From assembly GCA_031292735.1 (NCBI GenBank), contig JARLGP010000102.1, positions 1 through 18,055 of the forward strand: DNA of 18,055 nt. Reading direction: 5' to 3'. The position numbers and the translations under genes were made by a program. Origin of the DNA: Holophaga sp. GTDB taxonomy: Bacteria; Acidobacteriota; Holophagae; Holophagales; Holophagaceae. The notes beneath the pieces were generated by a model. The model searched no databases and was not told where the DNA came from. It saw nothing but the letters and a program-made list of their open reading frames with translations. This document shows, in pieces, positions 11,992 to 18,055 of this stretch. Numbering within the stretch: the first letter of the stretch is position 1; every line of letters starts with the position of its first letter.

Positions 11992-14010
11992 ATGACAGGA
12001 TTGATGGAACCGCCACTGGTGTCGGGTGAGACCCGGAGCAGGAAGCTGCGGAGGGATCCCAGGGTCCGAAGGGCGGTCAAGCTGACCCTGGACCTCCTGG
12101 CCGCCTGCGCGGCCATGGTGGCCGCCTGCGCCGTCCTGGGCCAGAGGCTGCCCACCGGGCCAGGCCTGGCCGCCTTCGCGCTCCTGGGCATGGCCGTCAA
12201 CGCCGCCTTCAAGTTCTACGCCCAGCACTACCGGGCGGTGGGGCTCCGGGATGCCTGGGCGCTGGTGCTGGGCAACCTGGCCATGGCCACCGGAGTCCTG
12301 GCCGTCTGCCTCCTGCGCGGCCAGGGCTGGCCCGGCGGCGAGCCGGCGAAGGTGGTGCTCGGGGCCAGCCTGCTGCTGGGGCCCCTGTGGTTCGGGCTGC
12401 GCATGGCCTGCCTGGCCCTGCACCGGCGCCGGGCGGCCCTGGCCTCCGGCCGGGAGGGCGCCGCCATCCAGCGGGTGCTCATCGTCGGCGCGGGGCAGGC
12501 GGGAATCCTGCTGTGCCAGGAACTGCAGGACCATCCGGGGCTGTGCTGCCGGGTGCAGGGCTTCGTGGACGACGCCCTTGAGAAGCAGGGGCTCAGGATC
12601 CAGGGGGTGCCGGTGCTCGGTCCCACCGCGCTGCTGCCCCTGTACATCCGGGAGCAGCGGGCCAGCCAGGTGATCCTGGCCATGGCCGGGGCGCCCGGGG
12701 CCCGGCTGCGGGAGCTGGCGGCCATGGCCCGGGCGGAAGGGGCCGAGGTCAAGACCGTGCCGGGCATCCACAGCCTGGTGGCCGGCCAGCCCTGGAAGCC
12801 GGAAGTGCGCGACATCGCCATCGAGGACCTGCTCCGGCGCGCGCCCATCACCCTGGACACCGTGGCCATGCGGGCCGCGGTGGCGGGAGCGGTGGTGCTG
12901 ATCACCGGCGGCGGGGGTTCCATCGGCAGCGAACTGGCTCGCACCGTGGCCGGCTTCGGCCCCGAGCGGGTGGTGCTGCTGGGCCGGGGCGAGAACAGCC
13001 TGTGGCAGGCCCAGCGCCAGCTGACCCGCCTGCTGCCGCGGCAGCAGGTGGCGGTGGTCCTGTGCGACATCCGCAATCGCGCCCGGCTGGACCAGGTGTT
13101 CCAGACCTGGCGGCCGGAGGTGGTGCTGCACGCGGCGGCGCACAAGCACGTGCCGTTCCTGGAGGAGAACCCCGAGGAGGCCATCGAGAACAACATCTTC
13201 GGCACCCGCAACATCATGGAGGCGGCGCTGGAGCACGGCACCCGCACCTTCGTGAACATCTCCACCGACAAGGCGGTGAACCCGGTGAGCGTGCTGGGGG
13301 TTTCCAAGCGCATCGCCGAGCTGGTGGTGGCCCGGGAGGCGGCCGTGGCCTCCAGTGCGCGGCTGGTGAGCGTGCGGTTCGGCAACGTGCTGGGCAGCCG
13401 CGGCAGCGTGATCCCCATCTTCATGGACCAGATCCAGCGGGGCGGGCCGGTGACGGTCACCCACCCGGACATGGTGCGCTACTTCATGACCATCCAGGAG
13501 GCCGCCCAGCTGGTGCTGCAGGCCGGGCTGCTGGGCGACGGCGGCAAGGTGTTCGTGCTGGACATGGGCGAGCCGGTGCGTATTGTCGAACTGGCCCGGG
13601 AGATGGTCCGGCTCTCCGGCTTCTGCCCGGGGGCCGACATGGACATCCGTTACACCGGCCTGCGCCCCGGGGAAAAGCTGTTCGAGGAGCTGTTCGCCTC
13701 CGGCGAGGAGCGGCGCACCCAGGTGCACCCCAAGGTGTTCGAAGCGGTCCAGGATCCCCAGGATCCCGCGCGCCTGGAGCAGGGGCTGCGCAGGCTCAAA
13801 GCCCTCATGGCCAGCGTCGATCCGGACCGGCAGCGGAAGATCCTGGAATGCTTCATGCATCTGGTCCCCACCTACCAGGCCTCCCCCAGCGGCCTGGGGC
13901 GCTTCCTGGCCCTGGACCCGGTGACCCGGCCCGGGCCTTCCAGCCGTTCGGCGGCCCGGCACTTGACCGGCGCCTGGGTGCCCTCCTCCGAATTCCTACG
14001 CCCTGAGTAG
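11992..14010 (+). CDS. Membrane-bound nucleotide-sugar 4,6-dehydratase/epimerase (WbpM/CapD/PglF family)
   Basis: A 672-residue inner-membrane enzyme of the polysaccharide-biosynthesis SDR family, acting on UDP-GlcNAc-type sugars for envelope glycan or glycoprotein precursors. Four N-terminal membrane segments (about 29-50, 57-76, 88-108, 120-143) precede a regulatory Rossmann domain (RVLIVGAGQAG, 161-171). The catalytic SDR domain starts at TGGGGSIGSE (305-314) and contains AAAHKHVPFLE (381-391), STDKA (424-428), RFGNVLGSRGSVIP and GLRPGEKLFEE. The catalytic position four residues before K439 is L435 (SVLGVSK), where soluble relatives have Tyr and WbpM/PglF have Met. Other residues look intact. 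The ATG at 11992 has AGGA (11981-11984) upstream. Expression may be coupled to an upstream mini-ORF. No glycosyltransferase genes adjoin it, so the product is unknown. Confidence 0.92.
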   Translation: MTGLMEPPLVSGETRSRKLRRDPRVRRAVKLTLDLLAACAAMVAACAVLGQRLPTGPGLAAFALLGMAVNAAFKFYAQHYRAVGLRDAWALVLGNLAMATGVLAVCLLRGQGWPGGEPAKVVLGASLLLGPLWFGLRMACLALHRRRAALASGREGAAIQRVLIVGAGQAGILLCQELQDHPGLCCRVQGFVDDALEKQGLRIQGVPVLGPTALLPLYIREQRASQVILAMAGAPGARLRELAAMARAEGAEVKTVPGIHSLVAGQPWKPEVRDIAIEDLLRRAPITLDTVAMRAAVAGAVVLITGGGGSIGSELARTVAGFGPERVVLLGRGENSLWQAQRQLTRLLPRQQVAVVLCDIRNRARLDQVFQTWRPEVVLHAAAHKHVPFLEENPEEAIENNIFGTRNIMEAALEHGTRTFVNISTDKAVNPVSVLGVSKRIAELVVAREAAVASSARLVSVRFGNVLGSRGSVIPIFMDQIQRGGPVTVTHPDMVRYFMTIQEAAQLVLQAGLLGDGGKVFVLDMGEPVRIVELAREMVRLSGFCPGADMDIRYTGLRPGEKLFEELFASGEERRTQVHPKVFEAVQDPQDPARLEQGLRRLKALMASVDPDRQRKILECFMHLVPTYQASPSGLGRFLALDPVTRPGPSSRSAARHLTGAWVPSSEFLRPE

Positions 14011-14110
14011 TGATTCATTCTGCCACAGCCGTTGCAGGATCCAACCAGGGTCCGGGAGCCTCCGGAAAAAAACTGCCCCATTCTACAAGCAACGGACCGC
14101 TTTCAAAGGC
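14011..14110. other. Gap between the epimerase and the sigma-54 promoter
   Basis: About 100 bp. It contains a small stem TCCGG/CCGGA followed by A-rich sequence (not a plus-strand terminator) and a spaced inverted pair GGTCCG...CGGACC that might be an activator half-site pair for the downstream sigma-54 promoter. No gene is visible. Confidence 0.3.
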
Positions 14111-14126
14111 TGGCATGATTATTGCA
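14111..14126 (+). promoter_or_regulatory. Sigma-54 (RpoN) promoter
   Basis: TGGCATGATTATTGCA matches the consensus TGGCAYRNNNNTTGCW at every defined position, with GG and GC exactly 10 bp apart (-24/-12). The predicted start is about 14137, leaving a leader of about 29 nt with a perfect Shine-Dalgarno before the small gene at 14166. A sigma-54 promoter needs an enhancer-binding activator; none is encoded in this window. Confidence 0.75.
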
Positions 14127-14165
14127 TAAATGTCTGTGAGCCAGCTCCATCCCAAGGAGGTTCCC

Positions 14166-14324
14166 ATGCCCGATCTGCCCGCCCTGCCTCTGTGGGATAT
14201 CCTCTATCTGAACGGCATCAGCCTGGTTCTGACCGGGGTCCTGGTGGCCCTGCTGGACGATGCGCGAAAGGACGAACCCTGGGACGAACTGCCGCCCCTC
14301 GCGGATCCGTACGCGGAGATCTAG
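14166..14324 (+). CDS. 52-residue single-pass membrane protein, unknown function
   Basis: A tiny gene with unusually good signals. A full AAGGAGG (14154-14160) sits 5 nt before the ATG at 14166, downstream of a consensus sigma-54 promoter. The protein begins MPDLPALPLWDILYLNG, has one membrane segment (about residues 10-31, ISLVLTGVLVALL), then an acidic, proline-containing tail (DDARKDEPWDELPPLADPYAEI) probably facing the cytoplasm or periplasm. I do not recognise a family. An in-frame ATG at 14130 lies upstream of the Shine-Dalgarno and slightly before the predicted transcript start, so it is rejected. The stop is 2 bp from the stop of convergent glgC, so its transcript probably continues antisense into glgC. 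It could regulate a larger membrane partner, as small membrane proteins often do; that is inference. Confidence 0.75.
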   Translation: MPDLPALPLWDILYLNGISLVLTGVLVALLDDARKDEPWDELPPLADPYAEI

Positions 14325-14326
14325 CC

Positions 14327-15628
14327 CTAGAGCACGGCGTCCCGCCCCACCGCCACCACGTAGCCGTCCGTGCCGGGGATGGACGCGGTGGTGAGCCCGC
14401 GCCGCTCGTCATCGGCCCGGTCGTAGCCGAGCACGGTGCCCTCGCGCAGGGTCACGTGGCGGTCCAGGATGGCGTTGCGGATCCGGCAGTGCCGGCCGAT
14501 GGAGGTCTCCAGCACCAGGTCCCGGTGCACTTCGCCGCCGAAGATCACCGAGGATTCCACCAGGGCGTAGCTCTGGATGAAGGTTCCGGCCCCCACCACG
14601 CTCAGCCGCACCACCGCGCCGGAAATGACCACGCCTTCGGCGACGATGGAACGCAGCGCCATGCCGGTGCGGTGGTCCTCCTCGTGCACGAACTTGGCCG
14701 GCGGGAAGAAGGTGGGGCTGCGGAAGATGGGCCAGCGCTCCCCGTAGAGGGAGAAGGGCGGCTTCACCGCCACCAGGTCCAGGTTGGCCTGCCAGAACGA
14801 ATCGAGGGTGCCCACGTCGCGCCAGTAGCCGGCTTCCTCGGTGAGGCACAGGCGCTTGATCCGCTGGTCGGCCCGGGACTCCACGATGTAGTCCTCGATC
14901 TGGTTCAGGATGGAGAAGTCGAAGGCGTAGACCGGCTCGTTGGCCGCCACCATGGCCGGGATGATGTCCCGGCCGAAGTCCGGGAGGTCGTTGTCCAGCC
15001 ACTGGTGCAGCGCCCGGTTCTCGAACATGTAGATGCCCATGGAGGCCATGCAGTCGGTGGTGCCGGGAATGCACTTGGGGTGCTCCGGCTTCTCCTCGAA
15101 GCCGACGATCCGGCCCTTGTCGTCCACCTCCAGCACCCCATACTGCCCGGCCGCCAGGGCCGCGGGAACCCGGATGACCGACACCGTGACCTTGGCCGCA
15201 TGGTCCTGGTGGAACCGGCGGAGCAGGCGGTAGTCCATCTTGTAGATGTGGTCGCCGGCCAGCACCAGCACATGGTCGGCCAGGATGCTGTCGATGAACG
15301 CCAGGTTCTGCCGGATGGCGTCGGCGGTCCCCTTGTACCAGGTGTTGCCGGTCTGCATCTGGGCCGGCACCTCCTCGATGAACTCGTCCAGCCGCGGGGA
15401 CAGGAAGCTGAACCCGAGGGTGAGGTGCCGGCTGAGCGAGTGGGACTTGTACTGGGTCAGCACCAGGATCTGGCGGATGTCGGAGTTGATGCAGTTGCTG
15501 AGGGTGAAGTCGATGATCCGGTAGATCGCGCCGAACGGCACCGCCGGCTTGGTGCGGACCTCCGTGAGCGGGCGAAGCCGCTCGCCCATGCCCCCGGCCA
15601 TGATGACTGCGAGTACGCGCTGTGCCAT
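14327..15628 (-). CDS. glgC: Glucose-1-phosphate adenylyltransferase (ADP-glucose pyrophosphorylase)
   Basis: A 433-residue cytosolic enzyme making ADP-glucose from glucose-1-phosphate and ATP, the committing step of bacterial glycogen synthesis. The nucleotidyltransferase domain has the GGMGERLRPLT loop (12-22), TKPAVPFG (27-34), WYKGTADA (98-105), GDHIYKMDY (125-133), the sugar-phosphate lysine in GFEEKP (176-181) and ASMGIYMF (195-202). The C-terminal third is the left-handed beta-helix with hexapeptide-like repeats (IVAEGVVISGAVV, then SSVIFGGEV, IGRHCRIRNAILDRHV). Length is normal. The ATG at 15628 has GAGGAGGT immediately upstream (about 6-nt gap). No other glycogen gene is adjacent. 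Its 3' end faces the sigma-54-driven small gene, so antisense interference is possible. Confidence 0.95.
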   Translation of the reverse strand: MAQRVLAVIMAGGMGERLRPLTEVRTKPAVPFGAIYRIIDFTLSNCINSDIRQILVLTQYKSHSLSRHLTLGFSFLSPRLDEFIEEVPAQMQTGNTWYKGTADAIRQNLAFIDSILADHVLVLAGDHIYKMDYRLLRRFHQDHAAKVTVSVIRVPAALAAGQYGVLEVDDKGRIVGFEEKPEHPKCIPGTTDCMASMGIYMFENRALHQWLDNDLPDFGRDIIPAMVAANEPVYAFDFSILNQIEDYIVESRADQRIKRLCLTEEAGYWRDVGTLDSFWQANLDLVAVKPPFSLYGERWPIFRSPTFFPPAKFVHEEDHRTGMALRSIVAEGVVISGAVVRLSVVGAGTFIQSYALVESSVIFGGEVHRDLVLETSIGRHCRIRNAILDRHVTLREGTVLGYDRADDERRGLTTASIPGTDGYVVAVGRDAVL

Positions 15629-16016
15629 GGTGACCTCCTCGGCTTGTCCTTTATGAGGATGATCCTGGAACGGAAGGGTTTGTAAATAACATCCAATCTA
15701 AAAAACGGGCCGTCAAGGGTTCCGCGCGACTCAAAACGATTCGCACAGCCGAAATGATACCCTTCACCGGCCGGTCGCTTGCGATCGGCCCAGGCGCCCC
15801 GGCTGCCGGGCTGAAAACCGGGGAAGGGGCGCGATAGGCCCTTTCCGGGCGGAGCCTTCCGACTCAATTCAATAAGGTCGCCGGCGCCGGATGCCGGACG
15901 GCCTTCCCGGAGATCCGCGCCCAGCCTGCGAATGCGTTCCGGGTCGGGGCTTGGCATGGGAATTGAGAGAGCACTCCATCCCCATCGAGCGTGGTCCAAG
16001 CAACCCAGGAGTCATT
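15629..16016. other. Divergent glgC / chemoreceptor intergenic region (388 bp)
   Basis: The glgC ribosome site occupies the left edge (GAGGAGGT on the minus strand). A possible glgC promoter is TTGACG (15711-15716) with TGTTAT (15686-15691), but the spacer is 19 bp. A GC hairpin with 9 pairs, one of them G-T (15822-15830 with 15838-15846, 7-nt loop), lies mid-gap. On the right, AGGAG (16007-16011) serves the TTG start of the chemoreceptor. No riboswitch, RNA gene or convincing coding sequence was recognised. A minus-strand open frame through the gap has no ribosome site and runs into glgC out of frame. Confidence 0.5.
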
Positions 16017-17600
16017 TTGCGAATCCTATCGAAATTTCGTTTCCAATCCCTCGCCGCCAAGGTGGTTGCACTCAGCCTCCTGCCCGTGGCCCTGTTCCTG
16101 GGGCTGTTCGCCGCCTACGTGATCCCCAAGCTTCGGAGCACCATCATGGAAGGCAAGGAACAAGGCCTCCGCCAGGTGGTGGATTCGGTGATCAGCGTGG
16201 CCGATGGGCTGGAAAAGGAGGTGCAGGTGGGCCGCCTGACCCGGGACCAGGCCCAGGAGCGCCTCAAGCGGGTGGTCTCGATGCTGCGCTATGACGGAAC
16301 CAATTACATCCTGATCCAGGACGAGGCGGGTTCCGTCATTCTCCACCCCACCCGCCCGGAACTCAACGGAATGACCGCCCAGGCCATGGGCACCACCAAG
16401 ATCGCGGCCGACATCCTGCGCGCCGGGGCGGATCCGGCCGGGGGGTTCATGGAATACCAGGCCACCAAGCCCGGTCACCCGGGGATGTTCCCCAAGCTGT
16501 CCCTGGTCAAACGGTATCCTCCCTGGGGATGGCTGCTGGTCACCGGGGTGTACGTGGATGACGTGCACCGGGAGATGGGGACGGTCGCCCTGGCCCTGGG
16601 GGTGGCCGCGCTGCTGGTGGCCCTGATGGTGAGTTTCATCTCCTTCAAGGAGGCCGCCCATATCACCCGGCCCCTGGCCATGCTGGTGCGGGGCCTGCAG
16701 CACAGCGACCTCAAACGCCGGATCGAGGTCCACGGCCAGGACGAGGTCTCCTTGGCCGCCGCAGCCTTCAACCAGTACAACGAAACCATGCTGGAGACGG
16801 TGAATCGGGTGAGCAGCTACGCGGACCGGGTGGCCTCGGGCAGCACCGAACTGGCCGCGTCTTCGGAGGAAATGACCCGCACCGTGGCGGATGTCGCCCA
16901 CGTGGGGGAGGACCTGAAGGAAGCGGGAGAGCAGGTTTCCAGCGCCATGGGACGGGTGGCCGACCTGGTCGGGACCATGGCCGGGAAGGCCCAGACCACC
17001 AGCCTCGAGACGGAGCAGGCGGTGCAGGAAGCCGCGTCCGGGGCCGATGCGGGCCAGGTCGCCGCCGCCGGAATGGCCGAGATCCAGCAGGTGACCGACA
17101 ACATTTCCAGCGTGGTCCAGGTGATCCAGGATATCGCCCGGCAGACCAACCTGCTCTCCCTGAACGCCGCCATCGAAGCCTCCAAGGCGGGGGCCCATGG
17201 CAAGGGGTTCGCGGTGGTGGCGGAGGAAGTGCGAAAGCTGGCTGAGCGCAGCCGAACCAGCGCCCAGGAGATCAAGGATTTCATCCAGCTTGCCAGGGAC
17301 ACGGTGACCGGCGGCGTCGGCAGCGTCCACACCACCCTCGCGCAGTTGGCCGCCATCAGGGGAAGGATCACCGTCATCACCAACTGCATCCAGGAGATGG
17401 GGGAGGTGAGCCGGGACCAGGCCACGACCACCAGCCAGATGGCCGCGATGATGGGTAAGACCAATTCCCGGCTCATGCAGAACGCCGCGTCCACCCACGA
17501 GCTGTCGGCGGCCGTGGGGGAGATCGCCCATACGGCGGAGGAGCTGTCGGTGGTCGCCAACGGCCTCAAGGATGTCGTGAGGACGTTCAACCTCGAATGA
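16017..17600 (+). CDS. Methyl-accepting chemotaxis protein with periplasmic sCache_2 domain
   Basis: A 527-residue chemoreceptor. Membrane segments at about 15-36 and 188-210 enclose a periplasmic single-Cache domain (about 37-187; signature pieces [30 protein letters not shown] and [16 protein letters not shown]), a domain known to bind small organic ligands such as carboxylates. A HAMP domain (about 211-263) and a signalling coiled coil follow, with the hairpin tip at about 369-410 ([39 protein letters not shown]). No CheB/CheR tether pentapeptide is seen at the C-terminus (RTFNLE). The start is a TTG at 16017 because AGGAG (16007-16011) is 5 nt upstream and it gives a short charged N-terminus before segment 1. 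The longer frame from 15891 lacks a ribosome site. Followed by a strong hairpin terminator. Confidence 0.92.
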
Positions 17601-17659: not shown

Positions 17660-18055
17660 CTAGCGCAGGCCCAGCTGCTTCAGCGCGGTGGCCAGGTACT
17701 CCACCGTGCGGTCAACGTTGTGCAGCTTGTCCAGGCCGAACAGGCCAAGCCGGAAGGACATGAAGTCGGCCGGCTCGTCGCACTGGAGAGGCACGCCGGA
17801 AGCGATCTGCAGGCCGACGCCCACGAACTTCTTGCCGGACTGGATCTCCGGGTCGGTGGTGTAGCACACCACCACGCCCGGGGCCTTGAAGCCATCGGCC
17901 GCCACGCTAGGCAGGCCGCACGTGTCCAGCAGGGCGCGGACCTTGGAACCCAGTTCCGCCTGCTCCTTCTGCAGCTTGTCGAAACCGTAGGCTTCCATCT
18001 CCTGCATCACGGTGCAGATCCGGGCCAGGGAATCGGTGGGCATGGTGGAATGGTA
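17660..18055 (-). CDS. Class V aminotransferase, C-terminal part (runs off the window)
   Basis: The last 131 residues of a PLP-dependent class V aminotransferase (alanine-glyoxylate / serine-pyruvate type). The frame is open to the right edge, where it reads YHSTMPTDSLARI, so the ATG at 18043 is internal and the true start lies outside the window. The visible part is the small C-terminal domain: SVAADGFKAPGVVVCYTTDPEI, GVGLQIASGVPLQCDEP, and FRLGLFGLDKLHNVDRTVEYLATAL, where the Arg of FRLGLFG would bind the substrate carboxylate. The PLP lysine is outside the window. The exact substrate cannot be told from this portion. Confidence 0.85.
   Translation of the reverse strand, partial: YHSTMPTDSLARICTVMQEMEAYGFDKLQKEQAELGSKVRALLDTCGLPSVAADGFKAPGVVVCYTTDPEIQSGKKFVGVGLQIASGVPLQCDEPADFMSFRLGLFGLDKLHNVDRTVEYLATALKQLGLR

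Follow-up and report, generated by a model that had tools for sequence, protein, structure and literature searches.

The 52-residue protein encoded at 14166-14324 of the window (the whole 18,055-nucleotide stretch of DNA analysed here) belongs, as judged from sequence comparison, to a real, conserved and undescribed protein family, and a -24/-12 promoter motif travels with its gene wherever the upstream sequence can be read. A conserved frame, a conserved promoter motif, a predicted helix and a conserved tail were found by computation, and together they make it probable that the locus is a stand-alone unit producing a sigma-54-switched, single-pass accessory or regulatory protein of the inner membrane with a partner docked on its tail. 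The features of the locus are listed in Table 1.

Table 1 Features of the small-gene locus and its neighbours in the window
Feature	Position	Strand	Basis
CapD/PglF-like nucleotide-sugar dehydratase gene	11992..14010	+	Upstream context
Non-coding block conserved behind the capD stop; candidate site for activator binding	14011..14057		Inferred
Predicted sigma-54 (-24/-12) promoter TGGCATGATTATTGCA	14111..14126	+	Motif match; L001 conservation; compatible in 6/6 readable relatives
Ribosome-binding site AAGGAGG	14154..14160	+	Sequence; identical in L001
Gene of the 52-aa small membrane protein, stop included	14166..14324	+	ORF, family, selection, fold
Convergent glgC-like gene	14327..15628	-	Context; target of the antisense alternative

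An initial search with the window protein retrieved 29 relatives with 54-94% identity to it. A profile search raised the set to 57 proteins including the window protein, and a third search gave 59 with only two new ones, so that by these searches the family is closed at 59 clusters, the window's and 58 others. Members begin with the pattern M-x-E/D-L-P-A-L-P-L-W-D, which leads into the hydrophobic stretch V-L-Y-L-N-G-I-S-L-V-L-T-G-x-L-A-A-L-L. An acidic linker that varies between members then precedes the C-terminal pattern L-P-P-L-A-D-P-Y-A-E-I, whose end is near-invariant and usually reads PYAEI. Among the 58 members examined, 57 end in P-[YFW]-x-x-[IV], the exception being a 41-aa entry. 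The most distant members, P0054-P0057, share 43-48% identity and have a longer linker; in these and in P0028, insertions or long linkers separate the helix from the tail and the C-terminal motif is retained, suggesting that the linker is only a spacer. The first-pass annotation had recognised no family for the protein, in agreement with the profile and structure searches: the window protein has no Pfam match, none of 21 members matches NCBIfam, Pfam returned a single non-significant match among the same number of members (1/21, DUF4013, E 0.16), and a search of PDB sequences gave no significant match to solved structures (best E 0.68). One member, from a 'Holophaga sp.' MAG, is named 'hypothetical protein' by NCBI, and narrow term searches of the open-access literature returned no paper combining all terms.

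AlphaFold predicted one helix covering residues 6-36 (pLDDT 93 for residues 11-20 and 95 for residues 21-30) followed by an unstructured tail (mean pLDDT 79 overall, pTM 0.45). The Kyte-Doolittle value of residues 12-30 is 2.26, and the mean core hydropathy over 58 members is 1.68; hydropathy and predicted fold both fit the initial description of a single-pass membrane helix with an acidic tail. Lysine or arginine is found on the C-terminal side in 49 of 58 members and on the N-terminal side in 8 of 58. These charges weakly favour a C-in orientation with the tail in the cytoplasm, the topology being uncertain since the tail is strongly acidic.

The one relative that could be read as DNA is the Holophagaceae MAG contig PLUC01000088.1 (L001). 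Between the window and L001 the small gene has a dN of 0.118, a dS of 0.422 and one in-frame indel, with 12 silent differences and 10 residue changes over the 52 codons. Seven of the 10 changes lie at residue 32 or later, in the linker and tail, and the earlier ones are D3E, V27A and A28V. Such a pattern indicates that the small protein is under purifying selection, and the proposal that the tiny gene is real is upheld by this selection and by the conservation of the frame in 58 other clusters.

In the window, the small gene runs from its ATG at 14166, 55 bp from the promoter motif, to the stop codon at 14322-14324. A longer in-frame ATG at 14130 lies upstream of the predicted transcript start at 14137. 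The stops of the small gene and glgC are separated by 2 nt in the window and directly adjacent in L001. As had been proposed, no gene other than the small one lies in the direction of the promoter before glgC, which ends at 14327 on the opposite strand. No intrinsic terminator was found in a scan of 13900-16100, an absence that tells little because shuffled sequences average just 1.3. Folding of the small-gene mRNA was no better than that of shuffles, and an Rfam search gave a sub-threshold match only. Farther along, a chemoreceptor (MCP) gene lies at 16017-17600 between glgC and the next gene, where L001 has only about 90 bp. The reverse-strand frame at 17660-18055 runs off the window; its DNA is 84% identical to L001, and the 127-aa piece that it encodes has no Pfam or NCBIfam match.

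The promoter motif TGGCATGATTATTGCA is the sole exact match in the window to the looser pattern TGGCAYRNNNNTTGCW, and base composition predicts 0.005 matches per window, both strands counted, for the stricter pattern TGGCAYGNNNNTTGCW. When two mismatches or fewer to the looser pattern were allowed, 13 matches were found against 7.8 expected, and 14 of 200 shuffles reached 13, so weaker sigma-54 look-alikes are near chance. The motif had been said to fit every defined base of the RpoN consensus, which slightly overstates the match: 13 of the 14 defined letters agree with the sigma-54 consensus YTGGCACGrNNNTTGCW, as given in an excerpt of PMC5874634, and the sole mismatch is at the sixth base of TGGCAC, which is T instead of C. 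The exact -24/-12 spacing claimed for it is present, with the -24 GG and the -12 GC at the fixed distance, and the full AAGGAGG and the ATG both follow within 55 bp, again as described. The GC of the -12 element occupies 14124-14125, from which the predicted transcript start was derived.

Conservation of the motif in relatives, named by the first-pass annotation as a point on which its proposal could fail, was found at a near-fixed distance from the start codon. In L001, TGGCACGATTTTCGCT lies 54 bp before the ATG, compared with 55 in the window, and the ribosome-binding site is retained. For other relatives, promoters were inferred by back-translating the upstream residues of over-long gene calls. 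Such extensions occur in eight members, two of which (P0019 and P0053) are too short to reach the motif, leaving six to be scored. All 12 scored motif letters are possible in P0009, P0017 and P0058 (each at -55) and in P0059 (at -52), and 10 of 12 are possible in P0011 at -54. In P0006, all 8 readable letters are possible at -55, a result that is weak alone (161 of 2000 shuffles) and is outscored at another offset, -44, in an unrestricted scan. The five others are individually reached by 0 to 9 of 2000 shuffles, and the joint score over the six by 0 of 2000 residue shuffles. Thus, six of six readable relatives are compatible with a sigma-54 motif at 52-55 bp, one of them weak alone. Because L001 has TCGCT and P0011 admits only 10 of 12 letters, the strict motif is not retained everywhere. 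Since the P0059 and window proteins share just 53% identity, the gene appears to have retained its promoter through deep divergence.

Upstream of the promoter, the non-coding block that follows the capD stop is identical to L001 at 44 of 47 positions. The four-fold degenerate sites of glgC are 75% identical between the same two sequences (153/204), and the chance of an identity of at least 44/47 at a 75% rate is 0.001, for a stretch picked after looking. The spacer between block and promoter is 53 nt in the window versus 77 nt in L001 and aligns only with many gaps. In L001 the capD-like gene (L001:6840-7780) lacks two stretches corresponding to about 12109-12404 and 13196-13964 of the window, through deletions or assembly faults. 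Since the block and small gene are intact where capD lacks these stretches, it is the small gene that the block seems to serve, and from these two sequences the block is possibly an activator-binding site. In a search of 13 genomes for capD homologues, six passed E 1e-100; the 12 capD loci besides L001 carry no trace of the block, with best matches of 17-20/36 to a 36-nt piece compared with 35 in L001. Copies of the block core with three mismatches or fewer number 5 in the genome G001 (including the block itself) against 1 in the control, and 21 against 10 over all four genomes, no clear excess. The one match with a single mismatch (G070, L027) was rejected since it falls within a long open frame. 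The block itself contains another sigma-54-like sequence, TGCCACAGCCGTTGCA, at 14021-14036, in which C replaces the second G of the -24 element; a site of this type is retained in L001 with one other base altered.

The distribution of the gene points to a narrow lineage, with diversity in metagenomes. G001 was the sole carrier among six genomes of its genus, among 77 of its taxonomic family (the same 77 make up its order) and among 396 in a phylum sample, where at most 17 first-look candidates per genome were scored among the matches listed. A collection of contigs with one genome per species yielded L001 only. Three further matches in genomes of the family (E 0.03-0.08) were discounted because they fall inside open frames of 202-458 aa, as was another (E 0.48) inside a 336-aa frame. 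The gene is lacking in 76 of the 77 family genomes, including three single-contig assemblies of 4.5-5.2 Mb from G001's own genus, indicating that it is dispensable in most Holophagaceae. In viral contigs, 18 stretches matched the family patterns and none encodes a relative; plasmids gave no match. In G070, G072 and G073, whose glgC genes are 74-78% identical, the roughly 1.5 kb read behind glgC holds other genes, and no family member was found in these three genomes. G001 holds two GlgC-like genes (L006 and L012), 88% and 48% identical to the window's, the latter resembling the GlgC of its genus mates (45-49%); with two different GlgC, G001 may be a mixed bin whose true genus is uncertain.

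A DNA-binding domain of RpoN was found in all three related genomes tested. The strict motif has three exact copies in G001 versus none for the backward control; about 1.4 are expected in 4.8 Mb at the base composition of the window, so three copies are no strong excess, and the locations of the copies are the stronger argument. From the start of one copy it is 51 bp to the ATG of a downstream ORF that we take to be CoA-transferase-like (L022); another lies 71 bp before an ORF that is presumably binding-protein-like (L023), and the third is 394 bp before an ORF assumed to be oxidoreductase-like (L021). For L022 and L023, the ORF on the other side carries GAYTGA or GAFTGA, a motif of sigma-54 activators, and these ORFs are probable sigma-54 activator genes.

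From these results a model is inferred for the activator site, topology, docking, partner and role. The segment 14111-14324 would be a stand-alone transcription unit, at which sigma-54 RNA polymerase would wait on the promoter for an ATP-driven activator to open it, the conserved upstream block being a possible binding site of that activator. A leader of about 29 nt and the strong ribosome-binding site would then direct synthesis of the 52-residue inner-membrane protein. The conserved helix, with G17 and G24 one heptad apart, may pack against another copy or a partner within the membrane, and the near-invariant P-Y-A-E-I/V of the flexible acidic tail may dock a partner, probably in the cytoplasm; the near-invariance of this C-terminus would imply that the partner is specific. 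Most likely, the protein would serve as an accessory or regulatory subunit whose production is confined to a single nutritional or stress condition.

Other explanations were weighed against this model. Since the small gene and glgC lie 2 nt apart in the window and touch in L001, and the scan found no terminator, read-through into the facing glgC could yield an antisense RNA by which a sigma-54 signal lowers ADP-glucose (glycogen) synthesis; the transcript would then matter as much as the protein. This is unlikely, however: selection acts on the protein itself, whose C-terminus is near-invariant, glgC is a known neighbour only in the window and L001, shuffles already average so few terminators, and Rho could end the transcript. 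Very unlikely, too, is a broader scheme in which the protein is a lineage-specific, sigma-54-switched membrane tether with PYAEI as a new docking signal and its read-through mRNA also silences glgC; if it were true, one activator would divert carbon from glycogen while placing a membrane partner.

The small size and single predicted helix would also suit a toxin-like or stress peptide that lowers membrane potential upon induction, but the conserved long acidic tail, fixed C-terminus and few positive charges argue against it, and neither an antitoxin-like partner nor an antisense RNA was recognised, Rfam giving only the sub-threshold match; we give this explanation hardly any weight. Least probable of all is that the promoter match arose by chance and that the gene is transcribed with a different sigma factor. 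The excess of near-matches in the window over expectation speaks for chance, whereas L001 and the six readable relatives, one weak alone, have the motif at -52 to -55, and no sigma-70-like site was reported by the scan upstream of the small gene. The sigma-54-switched membrane protein is the best reading. The gene is only a 'hypothetical protein' in the sources that name it, yet its frame, ribosome-binding site and regulated promoter are conserved together, and gene and promoter offer a starting point for studying how sigma-54 control works in Holophagaceae.

Several elements of this system have known counterparts. The promoter has the -24/-12 elements and spacing of sigma-54 (RpoN) promoters and 13 of 14 consensus letters, with rpoN present in the three related genomes tested and probable activator genes in one; it differs in driving a lone 52-aa gene. 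The phage-shock proteins PspB, PspD and PspG are likewise small membrane proteins driven by sigma-54. Pfam includes models for the Psp families, none of which is among the Pfam matches of 21 members, and no psp-type gene was found among the window proteins scanned. Pfam also includes models for CcmD, CcoQ, CydX, KdpF and MgrB, whereas the present protein matches no profile, has its own sigma-54 promoter and ends in a fixed PYAEI; oxidase, K+ pump and haem-export genes were absent among the window proteins scanned. These five are described, in an excerpt of PMC10903887, as small accessory or regulatory proteins with one membrane helix, CcmD being N-out and C-in. Their small size and single helix, predicted here as well, make them a possible working model for the 52-aa protein, which represents a new protein family among small regulated membrane proteins, a type of system that is not itself new.
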